Origin: Desulfurococcales archaeon
GTDB lineage: Archaea; Thermoproteota; Thermoprotei_A; Sulfolobales; WANQ01
NCBI GenBank assembly: GCA_027030065.1
Contig: JALVFK010000052.1
Span: 1 to 38,808 of the forward strand
Reading direction: 5' to 3'
DNA length: 38,808 bases
Shown: positions 4,384 through 37,208 of the stretch, one piece after another
How the letters are laid out: each line of letters opens with the position of its first letter
How positions within the stretch are numbered: the first letter of the stretch is position 1
Notes under the pieces: model-generated
What the model was told of the DNA's origin: nothing
What the model saw: only the letters and a program-made list of their open reading frames with translations
Database searches by the model: none
Made by a program: the position numbers and the translations under genes

Positions 4384-5109
4384 TTGGCTCGCGTACTCGT
4401 AGTTAGATTGGAGCAAGGCCTAGTCAACGGCTTACATGGAAAATACTATACGTGGAAGGGAGACCTTATTCCCGAAGACTTTTCAAGCCTAGAAAAACTC
4501 TATGAGAGAATTGATCCGCAAATAAACTTTGTCTGGTGGGATAAGCCAGCACCAAATGTTCCGGCTGATAAGTTTGCAGTAGAATGGACGGGCTACCTAA
4601 GAGTTGAGAAAACCGGGTTATACCGGTTCTACATAGAAGTAGATGATGGTGGTAGGCTATGGATAGACGACACCCTACTTATAGATGCTTGGAAAGAACA
4701 ACCACCAACAGTATACCATAGCGATATAGTTGAACTAGTACACGGACTCCATAAAATATTATTCCGCTTCTTCAACAACGAAGTCTTCGCTGTAGTAAGA
4801 TTAGGATGGATAACGCCAGATGGAAAAGCAGAAATCATTCCAAGGGAAAACCTTGTAACAAAGAAGAGTGATACAATAGAGGTAAGAGGACTACCCGACA
4901 AATATAGGGTAGAATTATGGAGCGGTGAACCACTACTACAAGCAACCGTGGAGAAAGGTAAAGCAGTAATGAATGCATCGAAACTAAAAGAACCCATAGA
5001 CGCCTACTTCAAAATATACGACGAGACGGGAGAACTCATTGGAGAATCACCAGTAATAAGAGATGTCTGGGGCGGAGACATATTTGAGATAACAATTGGA
5101 AAGGAATAA
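4384..5109 (+). CDS. PA14-domain protein without obvious signal peptide
   Basis: 241 aa; GLHGKYY...FAVEWTGYLRVEKTGLYRFYIEVDDGGRLWIDDTLLIDAWKEQ is PA14-like; TTG start at 4384. Confidence 0.8.
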   Translation: MARVLVVRLEQGLVNGLHGKYYTWKGDLIPEDFSSLEKLYERIDPQINFVWWDKPAPNVPADKFAVEWTGYLRVEKTGLYRFYIEVDDGGRLWIDDTLLIDAWKEQPPTVYHSDIVELVHGLHKILFRFFNNEVFAVVRLGWITPDGKAEIIPRENLVTKKSDTIEVRGLPDKYRVELWSGEPLLQATVEKGKAVMNASKLKEPIDAYFKIYDETGELIGESPVIRDVWGGDIFEITIGKE

Positions 5110-5122
5110 TAGCTCATACTTA

Positions 5123-6115
5123 CTATTTAGACGAAGGTATACCTACTTCTATGTTTATCTTCAATAAGTCTTTTAGCTTAGATGGATTTATCTTATAAAT
5201 GTTGGCGTTAAGATTATCAGACCCCTTCAAGTTATCTAGCGCGTCATGACCATATGTTTCTAAGCCAAAGGTATCACACCACGCACCTATTAATGAACCG
5301 TTAATGAAGAGGATCTGACACTCTGCTTCCTCTCCAGCTTGTATTCGCGCCAAGAGAGGCTCGTTGGGATAATCGCTCTGACTCATTATGCGTAAAGCCT
5401 CCAGTATCTTATCGAGACTTGTTGATTCAAGCTCTATTATTTTCTCCGCATCCTCTATCAACGCATTACTCGTTAAAGCCATTCTTCTACCAATCTCGGC
5501 CGTCTCATCCTTACCATGTATGTGTGTTTCCTCAACACTAGCCTTAGTAGGCTCTGGTACAACTATATCTATATCATCACCTACGAGTTCGATTACCGGC
5601 TTCTCAACATAGGTTATCTTAGTCTCCATCGGTATAAACAATGCTATTTCCTCATACTTAACTGGCCTATCAAGCCTACTCTCTGGGTCAACATCTAGCT
5701 TTAGCGTAACCTCTACCTCACTGGTCTTCACAAGTTCGACAACACCTACAAGAGACGGAGAAGACAATATATCAACGAATCTCTTTAAAGCATTTCCACC
5801 ACGATAAGTCTTAATATCTTCAATGCTTTCAATACCAATTATACCTCCCTTAAGAACATAGAGTATAAAAGAGGCCTTCGTTGGAGCCGCTATATGAACT
5901 CTGACAATACCTGTAAAATCGGAATCCTTGCCGCAGAGTTCAGACAACTTCCTTAAGATATCGTTTTTACTTCCTCTTCCAAAATCTATTCTAGAGCTTT
6001 TTTCTACTACTTTTTCTCCTGTTCCCGTAGACTCCTTTGTACGGTCAACGAGCCCTTCAAATAGCTCCTCGTGTTCCACTTGGGTCACCTTATAAAGGCT
6101 GGGAAGGTTTTCCAC
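5123..6115 (-). CDS. DUF2226/PATAN-like protein (paralog A of Roadblock-associated cluster)
   Basis: 330 aa; DFTGIVRVHI...LYVLKGGIIGIESIEDIKTYRGGNALKRFVDILSSPSLVGVVELV, same pattern as the ORFs at 6840 and 8307; family name is inference. Confidence 0.65.
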   Translation of the reverse strand: MENLPSLYKVTQVEHEELFEGLVDRTKESTGTGEKVVEKSSRIDFGRGSKNDILRKLSELCGKDSDFTGIVRVHIAAPTKASFILYVLKGGIIGIESIEDIKTYRGGNALKRFVDILSSPSLVGVVELVKTSEVEVTLKLDVDPESRLDRPVKYEEIALFIPMETKITYVEKPVIELVGDDIDIVVPEPTKASVEETHIHGKDETAEIGRRMALTSNALIEDAEKIIELESTSLDKILEALRIMSQSDYPNEPLLARIQAGEEAECQILFINGSLIGAWCDTFGLETYGHDALDNLKGSDNLNANIYKINPSKLKDLLKINIEVGIPSSK

Positions 6116-6227
6116 TGCTATTATTGGAGCCCGCTATTTTTAAATGGTTATCAGAAAAAGTTAGATACGATTCTAAAATGTTGTCGCTGTATTTGAAGTA
6201 TTATCCATAAGGATTATTTGCGAAATG

Positions 6228-6236
6228 CTTATATAG
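6228..6236 (+). promoter_or_regulatory. Candidate TATA box for the Roadblock gene
   Basis: CTTATATAG about 60 bp upstream of ATG 6295; a Shine-Dalgarno-like GGGGTGAT lies at 6282. Confidence 0.5.
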
Positions 6237-6294
6237 AAGCACATAATAAGATAACGTGACACAACAAAGAATTGTAAACTTGGGGTGATAATAC

Positions 6295-6651
6295 ATGTCC
6301 GAGATAGCAAGAAGAATCCTAGGAGAAATAACACGTGTAGAAGGAGTAAGAGCTGCAATAGTAGTATCCCGTGACGGACTTGTATTAGACGCTGTAATTC
6401 CAAGAAGAGACATTAATCCCGAAGACATAGCAGTGGAAGTAATGCAAATAGTAAATGCAACCGATAGACTAGGCAAGGACTTCGGCCTAGGAAACACAGA
6501 CATAACAAGCGTAGAGTACACAAACGGCATAATAATGGTAGGCACCATGGGTGAAAACGTACTCGCAGTAGTAGCTGAGCGCGGTGCAATGCTAGGAATG
6601 ATTAGAAACGAGATAAAGAAGCAGAGGGAAAGATTAAGAGCAGCCATATAA
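6295..6651 (+). CDS. Roadblock/LC7 domain protein
   Basis: 118 aa; EIARRILGEITRVEGVRAAIVVSRDGLVLDAVIPR...GTMGENVLAVVAERGAMLGMIRNEIKKQRERL matches the Roadblock/LC7 (MglB-like) fold pattern. Confidence 0.85.
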   Translation: MSEIARRILGEITRVEGVRAAIVVSRDGLVLDAVIPRRDINPEDIAVEVMQIVNATDRLGKDFGLGNTDITSVEYTNGIIMVGTMGENVLAVVAERGAMLGMIRNEIKKQRERLRAAI

Positions 6652-6839
6652 CATTGATTCAAGATTACTAAATACGAGTTTATTTTTATTAATGTAAACA
6701 ACTTCCTACAATAAAATTATTGTAGCATAATTTTCTTAATCTCTAAAGTGTGATTTTAATCGCTTAACCTTTTAAGTTAGTAATAGTAAATATAAGGTAC
6801 TAGAAGACGGAGAATACTTGTACATAGGAGTGGGGAGAA

Positions 6840-8213
6840 TTGAGACCTGTAGCAAAGGGTGTTACTAGAAAGTTTATACGAATAACAGATGACAAAGAAG
6901 CTGCACTAAGCGAGTTAAAGAATAGTATTAATAAAGCATTTACAGGTAGGATTCAAGGCATACTTAGGACGGATAAAGGAGAATTAGAGATAGTAGTAGA
7001 GGTTTTACAGGGCAGGATTGTTGCAGCTGGTGTAGAAGGTTATACCAGCATAGATGGTGGGTTAGCTTTAAACACTATAATTAATGCTATTATTGAGGGA
7101 ACGGGATTCCTAGAAATAATAGAATTAAATGAAGAGGGAGTAAACTTAGACTTAGAATTCAATCCAAACTCTAAGCTATCAATGCCTACAAGCCTCGAAC
7201 TATACATTAACAGAATAGAACTCAGACTACGACAACTACAGAGAAAAAAAGAAACACAGCCAACATGGACGCCACAACCGCTTAAAAGAAAGCCAATAGA
7301 AGAGACACGGAGAGAAGAAGTCGAAAAACCAAGACCTCCCACTGAAATCAGACAATTCACAAGAAGAGAAGAAATCTCATCGAAGAAAGAGGAGGGAAGA
7401 ATCCAAGAAAAACCAGAAGCAGAGGATAGGGAAAAAACAGTAGAAGTAGAAACGAAACCCGAAGAGAAGAAAAAGATACTCGAAGAAATAGGATTGGATG
7501 AGGAGGTGTTAGAAGGCCTAGTAGTAAATGTCAAAGAGAAGCCTCCCGTAATCGTTGCCTTACCCTCAAGTAAAGAAGCCTCGACAGCTCAAGTAGCTAC
7601 TGAGACTACTGGACCAATTGTTGAGAAATCGGCTGAAGAAAGATCTTCGGTTGAAGAACTACACGCTGTTCCGAAGACTGAAGTTGAACGTTTACCGCAA
7701 GTAAAAGAAACTGCGCCAAGTCCAGAAGAACTATTATCTAAGTTACCGTTAAGTGATAAAATAGAGGAATACAGTAAATCATTATTATCGGAAACCGATA
7801 AATTATTACTATCACTAATTGAGACCTCTGATATATTAAGCCATGGACGAGATAAAGTTGATGCCGTATTTAAGAAAATCATCGACTTATCAAAGAATAC
7901 CGATAAGCCAGTAAAACTTAGTACAGCTACAGCCGGCAAACTATACTATATAATAGTACATAACGGTTCAATAGTATCGGCATTTAAGGTAGATGAAAAC
8001 TCGGAAAATATTGAGTTATATGGTCGTGCAGCACTAATAGACTTGTTCAAGAAGCTATTATCAGGGAATATAGACTATGTTATATCACTTGTCAAAAATA
8101 AGTATGTACTATCAGGTTTAGGCCTCGTAGAAAGAGAGGAAATAGAAGAGGAAATAGAAGAACGAGCTGAAGGACTCTTCGGTAGACTTAGGAAAATCTT
8201 TGGTGGTAAATAA
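6840..8213 (+). CDS. DUF2226/PATAN-like protein with long charged linker (paralog B)
   Basis: 457 aa; AFTGRIQGIL...VLQGRIVAAGVEGYTSIDGGLALNTIINAIIEGTGFLEIIEL; Glu/Lys/Pro-rich linker; second related domain; C-terminal RAEGLFGRLRKIFGGK. Confidence 0.7.
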   Translation: MRPVAKGVTRKFIRITDDKEAALSELKNSINKAFTGRIQGILRTDKGELEIVVEVLQGRIVAAGVEGYTSIDGGLALNTIINAIIEGTGFLEIIELNEEGVNLDLEFNPNSKLSMPTSLELYINRIELRLRQLQRKKETQPTWTPQPLKRKPIEETRREEVEKPRPPTEIRQFTRREEISSKKEEGRIQEKPEAEDREKTVEVETKPEEKKKILEEIGLDEEVLEGLVVNVKEKPPVIVALPSSKEASTAQVATETTGPIVEKSAEERSSVEELHAVPKTEVERLPQVKETAPSPEELLSKLPLSDKIEEYSKSLLSETDKLLLSLIETSDILSHGRDKVDAVFKKIIDLSKNTDKPVKLSTATAGKLYYIIVHNGSIVSAFKVDENSENIELYGRAALIDLFKKLLSGNIDYVISLVKNKYVLSGLGLVEREEIEEEIEERAEGLFGRLRKIFGGK

Positions 8214-8306
8214 GGTGAATTAAGTTCTTATGATTCCTTCTTATAGATAGAGACTTGTTGCAATATACCTTACAAGAATATTTAGTATTTACTAGCAAAG
8301 GAATGT

Positions 8307-9482
8307 CTAAATATTATTCTCTATGAGGAGCTTTGCTAAACTGGTAGCATATTTCCAGTCTTCTTCACTCACCTTATACCACGGTGCATCTACTTTCTCT
8401 CTATCAATGGTTTTTATCGTATCAGTCTCCGACGCAAGAACATATGGAAGTATATGTAAAGCTAATACCTTGTTAATCTTTTTCTCTGTATTATTAGTGT
8501 ACAGATATCCACCTACCCGTATTATACGCCTATTTGATACAACTATATAATATTTTATTTTTGACTCCCCTAATTCTAGTAGACCAGTATAATAGCCTTT
8601 CAAGTCGTCTAGAGCATAGAGGATCTTCTCCTTTGTTTCACGGTACAAATCGTTGAATACTAGCTGTCTTAGTTCAACTGTATACCCCGTTTTCTGTCGT
8701 ACGAGAAATTCTACTGCTTTACGGTTAGTTATTGTTATACCCATGTTGTCGCAGTAGATTCCAGCAATCCTATCATCTATTATGAGAGCCATACAGTTAA
8801 CGGTTTCATCACTTGTACTTATCTTTGCAATAATTATTTGTTTCCGCTTACCATACTTACTCAATAGCTCCAATAAGTCAATAGCTGTTGCAGCAGTCAA
8901 TATTCCCAAAGGCTTAGTTTTTCTTAGCAGGTGTTCGTAGTAGTTGCTTAGAAACTCGCTATACTTATCAACTAATTCGCGGTCACGTATGAACTTTACC
9001 TTAATCTTTTTGGAGCGCTTACGTATCTTCTTGACTATGCCAAACCCCTTCTTAACCTCGCGTGCAATAATCTTTGCGGGTGCTTGTGGTTGTGTCTCTA
9101 ATGTCTGATAGCCTGGTATGAGTGTTACAAGGTCTCCAAAGTATACTGGGAGTTCTAGAGCTATTAACGGGTTCCCTGAGATTTTTGTCTCTACTTCATA
9201 TCTCATCATTTCTATGAAGTCTACTCTACCAGTTACACTAGGATTAGATAATTCTTCGAGAAGGCTACGTAAAGCACTCCCACCATAAAGTGATACTTCT
9301 CCACGCTTTCCCTCAGCATAGACAATAGCTCCACGTATTATTCCTAAATTATACTTCGAGCTAGAGTAACCGGACAAAACTACCTTTAACAACCCAGTGA
9401 ACATGGGGGTTGCTCTTGAACTATATCCAACGAGTCTTGCGATAAGCTCGTTTCTTGAGAGATACATTTGATCTAAAGACAT
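8307..9482 (-). CDS. DUF2226/PATAN-like protein (paralog C)
   Basis: 391 aa; MFTGLLKVVL...GIIRGAIVYAEGKRGEVSLYGGSALRSLLEELSNPSVTGRVDFIEM shares the N-terminal pattern of paralogs A and B. Confidence 0.65.
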   Translation of the reverse strand: MSLDQMYLSRNELIARLVGYSSRATPMFTGLLKVVLSGYSSSKYNLGIIRGAIVYAEGKRGEVSLYGGSALRSLLEELSNPSVTGRVDFIEMMRYEVETKISGNPLIALELPVYFGDLVTLIPGYQTLETQPQAPAKIIAREVKKGFGIVKKIRKRSKKIKVKFIRDRELVDKYSEFLSNYYEHLLRKTKPLGILTAATAIDLLELLSKYGKRKQIIIAKISTSDETVNCMALIIDDRIAGIYCDNMGITITNRKAVEFLVRQKTGYTVELRQLVFNDLYRETKEKILYALDDLKGYYTGLLELGESKIKYYIVVSNRRIIRVGGYLYTNNTEKKINKVLALHILPYVLASETDTIKTIDREKVDAPWYKVSEEDWKYATSLAKLLIENNI

Positions 9483-9763
9483 ATTGTTCTTCTACCCTTC
9501 GAGCATGTATACTTTTCTTGAGGAGGTATAACGCTTCTCCGTATAAAAGCTTCTTTGTCTTAGAAGTACAAAAATTTTTTCTTAAATACCTGTATTTTTC
9601 ATGTACAGAGACTTTTTATTCTATATTAGTTTGATCTTATCAATATTACTTGTCTCATATAGTGTTTCTGTACTTTTAATATTTTATGGATTTGTATGTT
9701 ATTCCAAGCTGTTTAACGATAGTTTTTTATTGTATTGTTCTACCTTCTGGATAGGGTGTCCAT

Positions 9764-11068
9764 ATGGATAGTAAGTATATTATCGGAATAATTATAGCAT
9801 TGATAGTAGGAGTAGGAATAGGCTATGTGGTTCTAATGGGAACAGTAAAGCCCGTAACAACAACAATAACAGTCCCCAAGACCATTACCGCTACGTCAAC
9901 ACAAACATTGGTGAAGACTACAACTATTCCAACAACTACTGTTACAACTACAACACTAGTATCTACTATAGTCACTACGACAACCTATGAGAAAACTATT
10001 ACCAGTCCAACGACTAGTGTTACAACAATTACTAAACCAATAACATTAACCGTAACTTATACGTTAAATAAAACAATTACCAAGACTCTTGTTTACAAAG
10101 TAGTCTACGATGCCCTTGGACGTCTCATAACATTCAATAAGACTCCAGAGAGAATAATATGTCTAGCACCAAGTATTACCGAGATAGTCTTTGCTCTAGG
10201 ACTAGGCGATAAAATAGTTGGAGTTGACGACTATAGTAATTATCCGCCGGAAGTAAACGAGCTTGTTAAGGAGGGTAAGATCCAACGAGTAGGCGGTTAC
10301 TGGACACCAGATTTCGAGAAGATAGCTGAGCTTAAACCAGACCTAGTATTAGCTAGTGTTAGCCCTCACGCAAAGATGCTTGATAAGTTTAGGGAGCTTG
10401 GCTTAAAGGTGGTTTTCTTAAAGTCTAGTACTGCGCGAAACGCCTACGATATATATCAGGATATAATGTTGGTTGCATCGATATTCAATGTAGAGGATGA
10501 GGCTAAGAAACTAGTAGATGATATCCAGTCAACAATAGATAACGTAACCCAAACTCTAGCGAAAGCAAATGTTACTCCAGTAAGGACTCTGATAATACTA
10601 GGCCCGCCATCATGGGGTCTATGGACTACTGGTGGTGATACATTCATAGACTATGTTATAATGACCAGCGGTGGTGTGAATATTGCATCAAAGTATAGTG
10701 GATGGGTTAAACTAGACTATGAGGAAATACTGGCCCAAGATCCAGAAGTAATAATAATAAGCATTATGGGTACTAGAGAAGATGCTGAGAAAATATTCAA
10801 TGATATAGCTAATAGCCCGTTAAACCAAACAACAGCATTCAAGAATGGGAGAGTCTACGTGTTTATAGGTGAAGCAGACGATGTATTAATGAGACCGGGA
10901 CCACGTATAAGCATTGCCGTAAAGATATTATCACAAGTACTTCATCCAGAAGTATTTGGCGAGATAAATAGGAGTGATGTAATAAAAATGCCTTCACAGG
11001 AGACTATGGGATACGAACTAGGCATTACCAGCATTGGAGCTGGAGATGGTGTAAGGATTGAGTATTAG
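9764..11068 (+). CDS. ABC transporter substrate-binding protein, BtuF/FepB type, membrane-anchored with Thr-rich linker
   Basis: 434 aa; N-terminal TM, Thr-rich stalk, then PERIICLAPSITEIVFALGLGDKIVGVDDYSNYPPEV typical of periplasmic binding family 2. Confidence 0.9.
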   Translation: MDSKYIIGIIIALIVGVGIGYVVLMGTVKPVTTTITVPKTITATSTQTLVKTTTIPTTTVTTTTLVSTIVTTTTYEKTITSPTTSVTTITKPITLTVTYTLNKTITKTLVYKVVYDALGRLITFNKTPERIICLAPSITEIVFALGLGDKIVGVDDYSNYPPEVNELVKEGKIQRVGGYWTPDFEKIAELKPDLVLASVSPHAKMLDKFRELGLKVVFLKSSTARNAYDIYQDIMLVASIFNVEDEAKKLVDDIQSTIDNVTQTLAKANVTPVRTLIILGPPSWGLWTTGGDTFIDYVIMTSGGVNIASKYSGWVKLDYEEILAQDPEVIIISIMGTREDAEKIFNDIANSPLNQTTAFKNGRVYVFIGEADDVLMRPGPRISIAVKILSQVLHPEVFGEINRSDVIKMPSQETMGYELGITSIGAGDGVRIEY

Positions 11069-12128
11069 GAGACTTTATAGGCTTAGGATAAAACGTTTTT
11101 TATTCTCTCTTATATTTTCCCTAATCCTGTTATTTCTTATTGTAGTTTTATCCTTATCTATTGGTTCCTCAGAGTACGGCTTCCTCGATGTACTAAGATT
11201 ATTCCATCACGACTTCTTAAGTGTTTTTGGCATTAACTCCTCCAGGCCAGAAGGTTATGATAGAATAGCATTAATAGTATATTCTATTAGGTTTCCTAGA
11301 ACTCTCGTAGCATTATTGGCGGGCGCGGGACTAGGTATTGCTGGTGTCCTTATTCAAGCTATAACACGTAATCCTTTAGCTGAGCCCTTCCTCCTCGGCT
11401 TATCATCTACATCTCTCACGGTCGTAGGGGCGTCTATATTATTGGTTCCGGGGTTACTCTATGTTCGAGCTTATATTGTTCTTGTAGCTTTTCTCGGTGC
11501 TCTCCTTGGATTCTCTTTAACAATGAGTTTGAGTGAGCTAGCTGGTGGTAGTGCTTTAACGCTTATACTTGCTGGTATAGCTGTTTCATCTGCTTTTAGT
11601 GGGCTAGCACACATAATAGCTTTCCTAGTTCAAGTGAAGTTCAATACTCCCTTCCTAATATTACTGCTTGGTAGCTTTTCGAATGTTTTGAAAAGCGATA
11701 TATTCCCTATGATTATTTCATTATTGATAGGTTTTACTGCTTCAATAATTCTATCAAAGGCACTAAACGCTATTCTCTACGGCGATGAATATGCTAGCCA
11801 GCTGGGATATAATCCTAGGCATATTAGGAGGCTTTCAGCATTATTCTCAGCACTGCTTACTGGCGTTACTGTTGCTATAGCTGGTATAATCGGATTTGTG
11901 GGTCTTGTTGTACCTCATATAGCCCGGTTTCTTGTGGGAAGCGATCACAGGATTGTTGTCCCATTATCTGCTGTTATAGGTGGTCTCGTATTATTGTTGG
12001 CTGATATTATTGCAAGAATACTGTCATATTCTACTGGTATTAGTGGTATTCCAGTAGGAGCTATAACAAGCATGATTGGTGCTCCATTTTTCGCTTACTT
12101 ATTGGTTAAGAGGATGAGGGGTACGTAG
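11058..12128 (+). CDS. ABC transporter permease, FecCD/BtuC family
   Basis: 356 aa; RFPRTLVALLAGAGLGIAGVLIQAITRNPLAEPFLLGLSS and GIIGFVGLVVPHIARFLVGSDHRIVVPLSAVIGG. Confidence 0.95.
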   Translation: MSIRRLYRLRIKRFLFSLIFSLILLFLIVVLSLSIGSSEYGFLDVLRLFHHDFLSVFGINSSRPEGYDRIALIVYSIRFPRTLVALLAGAGLGIAGVLIQAITRNPLAEPFLLGLSSTSLTVVGASILLVPGLLYVRAYIVLVAFLGALLGFSLTMSLSELAGGSALTLILAGIAVSSAFSGLAHIIAFLVQVKFNTPFLILLLGSFSNVLKSDIFPMIISLLIGFTASIILSKALNAILYGDEYASQLGYNPRHIRRLSALFSALLTGVTVAIAGIIGFVGLVVPHIARFLVGSDHRIVVPLSAVIGGLVLLLADIIARILSYSTGISGIPVGAITSMIGAPFFAYLLVKRMRGT

Positions 12129-12907
12129 TGAAGCTACGAGTAGCAAATATAGAATTCTACTATGATTCTACTCTAGCTTTAAGGAATATAGTTTTTGAGA
12201 CTAGTGAAGGAGAACTAACCAGCATTATTGGCCCTAATGGTGCTGGTAAGACTACTTTGTTGAAGGTTATTGCTAGGCTATTAAAACCTAGGAAAGGAGT
12301 TGTATATGTTGATGGGGTTGATTTATGGAGGCTTAGTCCACGAGAAGTGGCTAAAAAGATTGCTTACTCGTCTACTTATGTAAGTGAGGGGTTTAATACA
12401 ACAGTACTAGACTACTTGTTAACCGCCCGTTATCCACATGCCCGCTTACTCTCTTTAATAGATAGAGAAGAGGATCTAGGAGTCATAGAGAACGTTTTAT
12501 CAAAACTCGACATATCTCATCTAGCCGACCGTAGACTAGACCAGTTAAGTAGTGGTGAGCTTCAACGTGTTCTAATAGCTAGACTGCTCGTACAAGAACC
12601 CAAGGTCCTCTTAATTGATGAACCTACTGCCCACTTGGATTTAAGGTATCAGTTAGAGTCTATGGAGCTTTTAAGAGAGATCACCTTAAGGGAAAACCTT
12701 GTAACGATTATAACTACTCACAAGCTATGGATTGCAGCCAAGTATTCTGATAAAACTATTCTCTTAGATAAGGGTAGGATTGTAGCAATTGGTTCTCCTG
12801 AGGAGGTTATAACGCCAGAAAACATTGTTAGTACTTATCGGGTTAAGATAAAGGTGTATAGAGACCCGCAGCTGGGATTAATTGTTGTACCATTAGAGCC
12901 CGTTTAA
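12128..12907 (+). CDS. ABC transporter ATP-binding protein, FepC/BtuD type
   Basis: 259 aa; Walker A GPNGAGKTT, signature LSSGELQRVLIAR, Walker B VLLIDEPTAHLD; overlaps the permease stop by 1 nt. Confidence 0.95.
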   Translation: MKLRVANIEFYYDSTLALRNIVFETSEGELTSIIGPNGAGKTTLLKVIARLLKPRKGVVYVDGVDLWRLSPREVAKKIAYSSTYVSEGFNTTVLDYLLTARYPHARLLSLIDREEDLGVIENVLSKLDISHLADRRLDQLSSGELQRVLIARLLVQEPKVLLIDEPTAHLDLRYQLESMELLREITLRENLVTIITTHKLWIAAKYSDKTILLDKGRIVAIGSPEEVITPENIVSTYRVKIKVYRDPQLGLIVVPLEPV

Positions 12908-17059: not shown

Positions 17060-18100
17060 ATGGAAACCAGGGAGCTGTTTGACTTACTAGAAAAACTGTA
17101 TAAAACAAGTGTATTGGGTTTAAGTAGGCTTGCAAGAGCCCTAAATATATCATATAACAAATTATACGTCTTTATTAATTCCCTTAGAAGACTAGGTTTT
17201 GAAATAGTTCCGTGCATTAATCTAAGGTTTGTCAAACTCGGTGTAATGATAGTACTAAGTGATAAACCAATAATTGATGATTGTAAACCCTTATTTCCTA
17301 AAGGTCATTTCGTGCTTCTCATGGTACCCCTAGATATAGGATATAAGGACTTGAGATCCATAATAGGCCCATCAGTAAGCTCCTTAAAGGTCTATTTTAT
17401 AGAAGAAGCCCAGTTACCAAAGCCTATGCTTGCGAAATATAACGTCGATAGCAGTTTTGAGATACTTAAAAAAGAGAGAGTATGGAGGCTACTCTTAGAA
17501 ACAATTGAAAGAATTGATAGGATGCAAATAGAACATGCAACATACTCTAATATTGTTTATAGCGAAAGATATAAAGTAAGTAAGATAGATTTAAAGATAA
17601 TGAATGAGCTAGTGAAAGATCCGTTTATTTCATCAAAGAAACTCGCAGAGAAACTAGGCATATCTGTGGGGAAGCTTAGAAGAAGGATGGTTATTCGTAT
17701 AGAGCCGTTGATGAAGGGATATAGAGTTTTATGGGCACCATACTATAGGCTGTTTAATGCAATATTGTTTAATGTTTTTAGAGTTAAATCTATTTCTTCG
17801 AGAATTCTCTATGAGATATTATCGGAGTTCCCTTTATCGGTTTTAACAGCATATAATTCAAATGAGAACATAATTGTTAATGCACTACTTGTTGACAGTC
17901 TAACATATGATTATACTAGAAAGTATTTGAGAATTGCTGAAAGAGAATATGGTGTAGAGATAATTGATTCTTGGGGCTATTTATATTCTGGTTTAGAGAA
18001 ACAAGTAATACCGTGTAGAGCTCTAGTAGAATATGACAAGAGGTCTAAGAGGTTCCGATTAAAAATGCCTCCTACCAGGACTACTGGCACCGAGCTATAG
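17060..18100 (+). CDS. Predicted transcriptional regulator with two HTH segments
   Basis: 346 aa; HTH-like SVLGLSRLARALNISYNKLYVFINSLRRLGFEIV and DPFISSKKLAEKLGISVGKLRRRMVIRIEPLM. Confidence 0.65.
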   Translation: METRELFDLLEKLYKTSVLGLSRLARALNISYNKLYVFINSLRRLGFEIVPCINLRFVKLGVMIVLSDKPIIDDCKPLFPKGHFVLLMVPLDIGYKDLRSIIGPSVSSLKVYFIEEAQLPKPMLAKYNVDSSFEILKKERVWRLLLETIERIDRMQIEHATYSNIVYSERYKVSKIDLKIMNELVKDPFISSKKLAEKLGISVGKLRRRMVIRIEPLMKGYRVLWAPYYRLFNAILFNVFRVKSISSRILYEILSEFPLSVLTAYNSNENIIVNALLVDSLTYDYTRKYLRIAEREYGVEIIDSWGYLYSGLEKQVIPCRALVEYDKRSKRFRLKMPPTRTTGTEL

Positions 18101-18755
18101 CTTTAGGTATTTCAGATAACTCATTTACTACTATGTCGGCATTATCTGCGAGTTTTATAGAACAGTTATACGCTATACCGCAACCAGCAAGTTTTATTAC
18201 GCCGATGTCCCAATCCGAGTCTCCCACATATATTGTCTCCCTTATACTTACTCCGTAGTGTCTAGCACTCCACAACAATGTGAGGGGTTTCCTGTAGGGG
18301 GGCATGCGTGCACGCTGATTCTCTGATACAATTCCATTACTGGTAAATGTTATTGGGTTAGCGATCCAGAAGTCGAATTCATATTTACTTGCTATTTTTT
18401 CGGCTAACTGACCTATACCAGCACTTATAATTCCTACTATGAATCCCTTATTCTTAAGCTCACCTACAACTCTACTAACGTTGTCGTTTACTTTTATCCC
18501 ATCTATGGCTTCGAGTAAGTCTTCCCGTCTAAGCTTTCTGCCGAGCGCTTTATTCCATAGCTCTATATCCCTTCTTATCCATTCATTATAGTCTATCCGA
18601 CCCCATACGTAGTCTAAAAAATTCTTCCTCCTCGAACTTATGGGTACACCAAAATAGTCGTGAACGTATTCCCAACTACTCTTAGATTTTGTTAAAACTC
18701 CGTCCAGATCAAAGGCTATTAACTTATATTTTCTAGTGGACAATTTGGTAACCAC
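18081..18755 (-). CDS. HAD-superfamily phosphatase (phosphoserine phosphatase-like)
   Basis: 224 aa; AFDLDGVLTKSKSSWE, IISAGIGQLAEKIA, YVGDSDWDIGVIKLAGCGIAYN. Confidence 0.88.
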   Translation of the reverse strand: MVTKLSTRKYKLIAFDLDGVLTKSKSSWEYVHDYFGVPISSRRKNFLDYVWGRIDYNEWIRRDIELWNKALGRKLRREDLLEAIDGIKVNDNVSRVVGELKNKGFIVGIISAGIGQLAEKIASKYEFDFWIANPITFTSNGIVSENQRARMPPYRKPLTLLWSARHYGVSIRETIYVGDSDWDIGVIKLAGCGIAYNCSIKLADNADIVVNELSEIPKAIARCQ

Positions 18756-35879: not shown

Positions 35880-37208
35880 TTAGGTTCCTAGTACTTGTTT
35901 TCCCTTATCGGTTATTTCTATGTAAATGTATTTTCCTTCCTCGCGAGTCTTCACGTATCCTTCTTTCTCAAGCTTTCTTATCCTTCTCCAAACAGTTGAC
36001 TTGCTTAACCCGGTTTCTCTTGCTAGTTCTGATATGGTCATGGGTTTGACTGCTATTTTTTCTAGAAGAAGCTTATCTCTTTCATCTATGGCTCCGGGCT
36101 CCTCCATTACTATACTTGCCTCCCCTCCTCCACCTCCATGTCTTCTCTCTTGTTCTTGGGTACTTGTTTCTCCCATGGTTTTAGAGAACCTTATCTTGTA
36201 TAGTATGTAGCCTATGATTAAGAGCACTATTATGGCTACTATGAAGACCACTACTATTGTTGGGAACCCTGCTCCACCTCCTCTAGTCGTAGTTGTCTGT
36301 ATAGACGTTGATGGTGTGGTTGTTATTGGGGTTGTTGTTGCTGGTTTTGATGTTGTCGTTGATGGTGTTGTCGTAGTAGTGGTTGTTTGCGTGGTAGTTG
36401 TTATGGGGCTGCTTGTTGGGGTTGGACTACTAGTGGTTGTTGAGGATTTCGTGGTTGTCTGGGTAGTTGGTTGTGGCGATGTTGTAGTGGTCTTAGTAGG
36501 CTGAGTGCTAGTTGTTGTAGGACTTGTTGTTAATGTTGTCGTTGTTGTGGTTGTCGTGGGGCTTGTCGTTGTAGTTTGTGTTGTTGTAATTGTTGTTGGA
36601 GAAGTCGTAGTGGTTTGTATTGGCGTTGTAGTAGTCGTCGTGGTGGCGGTAGTTGTTGGTGTTGTAGTGGTGGTTGTTTGTGTAGTAGTTGTAGCGTTTA
36701 CTACTATGTATTGGATTTCATAGCCTCCGCTCTCATTATAGTATAGTTTTATTGTTTCTCCTATGATCTCTATTTGTGGTGTGTCGTTGAAGTATAGGAG
36801 TCCGGCGTTGTCTGGTAGTATTATTGTTGCTGGACCATAGGGGTGTATTGTTGCTGTTATTATATCGTTTTCTATAGTGCTTGGTATAGCATTGAACTGT
36901 ACTATGACTTTATCTGTTGTATTATATGGGTATACGGTGATGTGTGTTCCGTTATAGTCTGCTAGTACTACGTTACCGTTTTCGTCGAAGGCTACGAGGC
37001 TCTCATTTACTACTTGCTCATGTACGGGAAACGAGTATTCTAGGAGCCCAGTTAACCCGCTTACAATAACTGTTATCCTCGCTATACCCTTATCGTCGAA
37101 CGAGTACACGTAGCTTAGACTAGGCGATGCCGCTACTACTAATATAGAATGTAATGCGATGAGGACAATGATAGCCAATAATAGTGTTGCTAGAGTTTTC
37201 TCTCGCAT
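35880..37208 (-). CDS. Membrane-tethered winged-helix regulator: extracellular domain, Thr-rich stalk, TM, cytoplasmic wHTH
   Basis: 442 aa; N-terminal TM, extracellular beta-rich region, long Thr-rich tract, TM PTIVVVFIVAIIVLLIIGYILY, C-terminal MTISELARETGLSKSTVWRRIRKLEKEGYVKTREEGKYIYIEITDKGKQVL. Confidence 0.88.
   Translation of the reverse strand: MREKTLATLLLAIIVLIALHSILVVAASPSLSYVYSFDDKGIARITVIVSGLTGLLEYSFPVHEQVVNESLVAFDENGNVVLADYNGTHITVYPYNTTDKVIVQFNAIPSTIENDIITATIHPYGPATIILPDNAGLLYFNDTPQIEIIGETIKLYYNESGGYEIQYIVVNATTTTQTTTTTTPTTTATTTTTTTPIQTTTTSPTTITTTQTTTTSPTTTTTTTTLTTSPTTTSTQPTKTTTTSPQPTTQTTTKSSTTTSSPTPTSSPITTTTQTTTTTTTPSTTTSKPATTTPITTTPSTSIQTTTTRGGGAGFPTIVVVFIVAIIVLLIIGYILYKIRFSKTMGETSTQEQERRHGGGGGEASIVMEEPGAIDERDKLLLEKIAVKPMTISELARETGLSKSTVWRRIRKLEKEGYVKTREEGKYIYIEITDKGKQVLGT

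Follow-up and report, generated by a model that had tools for sequence, protein, structure and literature searches.

A recurring Roadblock-DUF2226 partnership points to a possible control system of archaeal surface machines that has been little studied

The classical targets of Roadblock proteins are GTPases, a background that counts against any reading in which such a protein serves as an adaptor without one. They dimerise and act as regulatory platforms (PMC10933270), and in the MglA-MglB polarity switch a member of the superfamily is linked to type IV pili. Many prokaryotic Roadblock proteins have no GTPase encoded next to them, and according to Wuichet and Sogaard-Andersen (PMC4316618) not one of these had been characterised. 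A 2016 census of type IV pilus (T4P) loci places the stand-alone Roadblock genes of arCOG02603 often in archaeal T4P loci, and the text consulted mentions neither DUF2226-like partners nor the gene fusion described below (PMC4858521). A comparable stand-alone Roadblock protein of Desulfurococcales, the 123-amino-acid Iho_0929 of Ignicoccus hospitalis (arCOG 2603), is known only from proteomics, where it was abundant and three-fold up with Nanoarchaeum (PMC3149612).

Two domain families are relevant as potential partners. DUF2226 (PF09987) is an archaeal family of unknown function whose description carries no Roadblock association; it went unnamed in the open literature searched, although the founding 2006 PATAN paper, which lies outside that literature, may already note archaeal members. 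PATAN (PF14332, DUF4388) is found in bacterial regulators such as PixE. Its genes neighbour mglA and mglB in bacteria (PMC4316618), and its regulators act on type IV pili, the PilB1 motor being the proposed binding partner of PixE (PMC7690835).

The window, by which we mean the whole stretch of DNA analysed, comprises 38,808 nt of the forward strand of contig JALVFK010000052.1 (GCA_027030065.1) from a Desulfurococcales archaeon (Sulfolobales; WANQ01), whose genome spans 1.86 Mb and is 97.6% complete. The four open reading frames (ORFs) that an earlier note on this DNA had singled out as a possible regulatory module were found where it had placed them, and are listed here with the signals read by eye upstream of each.

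5123..6115, minus strand: A, DUF2226-like paralogue of 330 amino acids, divergent from R (BLASTP, jackhmmer, profile comparison)
6133..6146, minus strand: TATA-like box 5' of A
6228..6236, plus strand: TATA-like box 5' of R (CTTATATAG)
6282..6289, plus strand: purine-rich stretch before R, resembling a ribosome-binding site
6295..6651, plus strand: R, Roadblock/LC7 protein of 118 amino acids (PF03259)
6769..6780, plus strand: TATA-like box 5' of B
6827..6837, plus strand: ribosome-binding-site-like stretch before B, GGAGTGGGGAG
6840..8213, plus strand: B, DUF2226-family protein of 457 amino acids, with an N-terminal domain, a long low-confidence linker and a C-terminal domain (PF09987, AlphaFold2)
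8307..9482, minus strand: C, DUF2226-like paralogue of 391 amino acids, convergent with B (BLASTP, profile comparison, tree)
9534..9549, minus strand: TATA-like box 5' of C

R and B are co-directional and 188 bases apart. Because a TATA-like box precedes each gene, and because A is divergent from R and C convergent with B, the four make up a gene cluster rather than a single operon, each gene probably being transcribed on its own. An antisense ORF over the Roadblock gene (6201-6701, minus strand), reported by a simple gene caller, was dismissed as spurious, and searches of all ORFs were used instead.

R scored 43.6 bits against PF03259 (curated cut-off, 23), in line with its earlier description as a 118-residue Roadblock protein, and was the sole match to that model in the window's genome. 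It shares 90-98% identity with counterparts in genus and family relatives, and its profile matches solved Roadblock/LC7 proteins as well as MglB. Against the NCBIfam MglB equivalog model, R reached 14.2 bits with a cut-off of 200, and no mglA-type GTPase gene was found among the ORFs of the window, just as the earlier note had remarked that no GTPase gene was visible there. R is a Roadblock protein, not MglB by model or by context. Unlike the MglA-MglB switch, the window has DUF2226 partners and no MglA in searches of the locus and the genome.

A classical role for R is conceivable, in which it would serve, like MglB, as GAP or GEF to a Ras-like GTPase of the MglA or Rup type encoded elsewhere, with the DUF2226 proteins as switch scaffolds. 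Both MglB and the Roadblock proteins of Ragulator act on small GTPases, the bacterial PATAN neighbourhoods cited above fit this scheme, and the Rup GTPases of Group 2 belong to crenarchaea (PMC4316618). It sits poorly with the poor MglB-model score and with a locus lacking a GTPase. Moreover, searches of the window's genome with Arf and Roc models detected no small Ras-like GTPase, returning only HflX, aIF5B and Rad50-type proteins, although divergent Rup GTPases could escape both models. The Ras-like GTPase implied by the earlier reading was thus not recovered, and we regard this explanation as unlikely.

The note's claim that A, B and C are paralogs was borne out by profile comparison of their N-terminal domains, located as follows.

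5642..5992, minus strand: domain copy 1 of A, residues 42-158 (AlphaFold2, profile)
6861..7256, plus strand: DUF2226-like domain of B, residues 8-139 (AlphaFold2 pLDDT ~90; seed of the jackhmmer family)
9126..9422, minus strand: DUF2226-like domain of C, residues ~21-119 (jackhmmer, profile)

Independent orthologue profiles compared by hhalign gave probabilities of 97.4% for A-B (E 1.4e-11), 97.5% for A-C (E 5e-12) and 88.9% for B-C (E 2e-6). Single-sequence BLASTP run without composition adjustment gave values of 8e-17 for A-C, 8e-7 for A-B and 2e-4 for B-C, and iterative jackhmmer seeded with the B domain recruited both A and C. The shared N-terminal motif noticed earlier falls on near-invariant columns (B residues G58, G73, A76, G89 and E92). 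With PF09987 (cut-off, 22), B is borderline, scoring 22.9 bits when the genome was searched and 21.6 bits by hmmscan; A and C were not matched directly by hmmscan and connect to B through profile comparison. Contig C226 of the window's genome carries a fourth paralogue, D, at 29 bits, and A and C form a supported pair in the tree (99/98). By these sequence comparisons, A, B and C are paralogues within or descended from the archaeal DUF2226 family, B being assigned to DUF2226 and A and C to its diverged relatives, beyond the reach of Pfam.

Of the original DUF2226/PATAN-like label, then, the first half is supported. The PATAN half is not: B scored 14.3 bits against PF14332 (cut-off, 25), and no match exceeded the cut-off in any of 398 Thermoproteota genomes. 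The window proteins share a similar short motif layout with PATAN but carry no receiver domain, and given the failed Pfam tests the idea that they work like PATAN is a lead only. Foldseek comparison of the A and B models with the PDB returned no match at E <= 0.001, a weak test with whole-chain models that contain floppy linkers, and its sliding-clamp and gyrase matches had very low TM-scores; the domain is therefore given no fold assignment. A PDB sequence search with the DUF2226-like domain profile likewise gave nothing significant. The DUF2226 and Roadblock domains were also compared by profile for shared ancestry, which was rejected (probability, 0.1-0.5%).

The 147 genomes of the window's order that we surveyed contain 59 DUF2226-like genes, of which 29 have a Roadblock or Roadblock-Zn-ribbon gene no more than 3.5 kb away. 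The expected number is 0.39, so the excess is about 75-fold, and the linked genes are spread over 17 genomes, eight genera and five families. The remaining 30 are unlinked to Roadblock; viewed from the other side, a DUF2226-like gene is nearby in 15 of 36 Roadblock loci of the order and absent from the rest. Across the 147 genomes, DUF2226-like and Roadblock genes also co-occur with each other and with a third family, whose proteins begin with a Roadblock-like domain, continue with a double zinc ribbon and end in a hydrophobic segment (Fisher odds ratios, 11 to 120). The p-values of this co-occurrence are inflated by phylogenetic non-independence, and the linkage is the more telling result. 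A divergent 270-amino-acid family adjoining Roadblock (cluster 9) was recruited by the DUF2226-like profile and is given no separate count. The membrane Roadblock-Zn-ribbon companion is absent from the window's family, where apparent matches span the Zn ribbon alone, and a 172-amino-acid companion of Roadblock at other loci (cluster 4) shows no relation to V4R (profile comparison, 2.6%).

A and C are restricted to the window's family. In a genome of the sister genus (G003), Roadblock and one B-like gene share a contig, while an A-like gene is paired with a second B-like gene on a contig separate from Roadblock.

When GTDB genomes were scanned with the Roadblock alignment, 67 named loci came up. 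Roughly half belong to Desulfurococcales-type metagenome-assembled genomes and the rest mostly to Methanomicrobiales. From the latter group we analysed 37 euryarchaeal loci, mostly Methanomicrobiales with a few records titled only Euryarchaeota or Thermoplasmata. A divergent DUF2226-like gene lies directly upstream of Roadblock in 29 of them (profile 96.2%, E 2e-9), and directly downstream in 26 is a DUF2226-Roadblock fusion, whose N-terminus is a DUF2226-like domain (hhalign 94.2%, E 1e-7) and whose C-terminus is Roadblock (PF03259, 29.8-41 bits). The methanogen order, DUF2226-like (minus), Roadblock (plus), DUF2226-like (plus), therefore equals the A (minus), R (plus), B (plus) of the window. 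The Roadblock-DUF2226 partnership is conserved across two archaeal phyla, so that the linkage expected from the earlier note is retained within the order and in methanogens alike. Of the two results that the note named as refuting it, unrelated ORFs and a lack of conserved linkage, neither was obtained.

These data bear on the possibility that the cluster arose by chance, from paralogues of common ancestry with no function joint with Roadblock. The separate promoters and orientations of A, B and C would be compatible with this, as would the confinement of A and C to one family and the position of the G003 A-like gene away from Roadblock. The excess linkage, the fusion and the recurrence of this arrangement of genes in another archaeal phylum argue against it. 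For Roadblock and B a chance cluster is largely refuted, for A and C it is possible, and as an account of the locus we give it little credence. The proposal that all four genes form one system holds for Roadblock and B; for A and C it has behind it their conservation in one genus (three genomes) and the single A-like gene of the sister genus, which lies away from Roadblock.

A FecCD-type ABC importer (Peripla_BP_2/FecCD/ABC genes, 9764-12907) is found near the cluster, and the module might regulate it. In the window, such genes are at most a few kb away from Roadblock-DUF2226; the same holds for G003, for G062 from a different family and, in part, for two genomes of the same genus. They were not seen, however, next to the remaining linked loci or in methanogens, and there are genes in between: C in the window, others in G003 and G062. 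We judge regulation of the importer to be quite improbable.

The methanogen loci point to a different client. Further along, a T2SSE (PilB-type) ATPase follows in 33 of the 37 loci, the one scanned being PilB3-like, and recurrent neighbours in scanned examples are two T2SSF platforms, an archaeal prepilin peptidase, a MinD-like ATPase and a V4R protein. Some Thermoproteota lack Roadblock; there, the distance from DUF2226-like genes is 6-8 kb to T2SSE/T2SSF genes (G043) or ~6 kb to a T2SSF gene (G073). Neither T2SSE nor T2SSF genes were found in the window, which takes in its contig in full. As the four T2SSE ATPases of its genome all sit on other contigs, namely C180, C42, C109 and C269, we can only infer a pilus client for this organism.

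Taking these observations together, we consider it an even call that the locus encodes a Roadblock/DUF2226 adaptor module controlling type IV pilus-like motors. The Roadblock protein would be the hub, presumably a dimer by analogy with solved relatives. The DUF2226-domain proteins would bind it and connect it to the client. The likeliest client is a secretion ATPase of type IV pilus-like kind, or the membrane platform of such an ATPase, and the module may control how this client is assembled or where it is placed. In this lineage the adaptor would have multiplied into A, B and C, which might compete for or share the single hub and could carry different inputs. This reading draws on observed homology, linkage, fusion, gene order and the pilus-locus context of relatives, including G043 and G073; on the arCOG02603 and PixE-PilB1 precedents; and on a genome with four T2SSE ATPases in which no Arf or Roc match is a small GTPase. 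It is weakened by a pilus link that comes from relatives, by the Roadblock and DUF2226-like genes that lack each other as neighbours, by the narrow distribution of A and C and by a DUF2226 similarity to the PilB-binding PATAN that falls below threshold.

A stronger form of the adaptor-module proposal, which we advance tentatively, is an archaeal Roadblock switch without a Ras-like GTPase. DUF2226 domains would replace the GTPase as partner and couple Roadblock directly to pilus-type motor ATPases, and lineage-specific adaptor paralogues would provide several inputs to one hub. Through the partnership, a large archaeal group of GTPase-less Roadblock proteins gains a specific, conserved partner family and a candidate client, the type IV pilus motor. 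Should the proposal be true, DUF2226 would have a function, and a possible GTPase-free branch would be added to the ancestry of Roadblock regulation, which is important for theories of eukaryote origin.

The host of this cluster is a heat-loving archaeon. Its DUF2226 paralogues had also been thought to carry a second, related C-terminal segment each, and candidate segments are listed below.

5162..5446, minus strand: domain copy 2 of A, residues 224-318, with the predicted topology of copy 1 (profile, AlphaFold2)
7857..8060, plus strand: putative partial second copy at the C-terminus of B, residues 340-407, predicted alpha-beta-beta-beta-beta-alpha, with weak sequence support
8679..8894, minus strand: second segment of C, related to copy 2 of A (hhalign 90.4% to the A segment)

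The idea fared differently in the three proteins. The piece of B, at a probability of 7.7% by profile comparison, resembles a partial copy in its model and is putative, and a second copy is likely in C from its similarity to the A segment. In A, sequence and model together lend it good support. An N-domain profile that contained no C-terminal segments scored 9.5 bits against the C-terminal half of A itself and 18.7 bits against that of its orthologue in G003, where the best of 640 shuffled controls reached 8.9 bits and the next 4.7. The AlphaFold2 model of A, for which 12 members of the family were aligned, shows the same predicted order of helices and strands twice, at residues 42-142 and 224-318 (mostly pLDDT 74-94): a leading strand, then helix-strand-strand-strand-strand-helix-strand-helix.

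On both flanks of the Roadblock-DUF2226 module, the window carries genes of other kinds:

4384-5109, + strand: PA14-domain protein (84 bits), adjoining the DUF2226-like gene A
9764-12907: Peripla_BP_2, FecCD and ABC ATPase genes, adjoining the module

A PA14 domain is out of the ordinary in so short an archaeal ORF, and the gene is conserved across two genomes of the genus. The importer is of the metal-chelate or cobalamin type, and one of the same kind was observed near Roadblock-DUF2226 genes in G003, from a sister genus, and in G062, from another family.

Two genes outside the window were also noted:

C226 (another contig of the same genome), 17899-18531 (L085): fourth DUF2226 paralogue
L107, 8539-9363: stomatin/SPFH-like protein (by eye), adjoining a Roadblock gene

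No Roadblock gene is adjacent to the fourth paralogue, which is divergent from an AAA/MoxR-like ATPase, with a TldD/PmbA-like pair nearby (by eye). Three genomes, all of one genus, carry the stomatin/SPFH-like gene beside Roadblock; in G019 and G099, a member of this protein cluster is encoded ~3 kb from a DUF2226-like gene. Across other Desulfurococcales, a four-gene set recurs (e.g., L111:9516-11190, L144:7011-9735 and similar loci), comprising a divergent 270-aa DUF2226-like protein, Roadblock, an uncharacterised 172-aa protein, and a Roadblock-like protein with a double zinc ribbon and hydrophobic C-terminus.

Two further features of the window were recorded:

1910-2741, + strand: HepT-like protein, then a probable MNT nucleotidyltransferase (Pfam check covering HepT)
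35880-37208, - strand: protein with a long Thr-rich stretch, a membrane segment and a C-terminal winged helix

The former would constitute a typical toxin-antitoxin pair, its second gene probably being the MNT member. The latter is possibly a membrane-bound transcription regulator.
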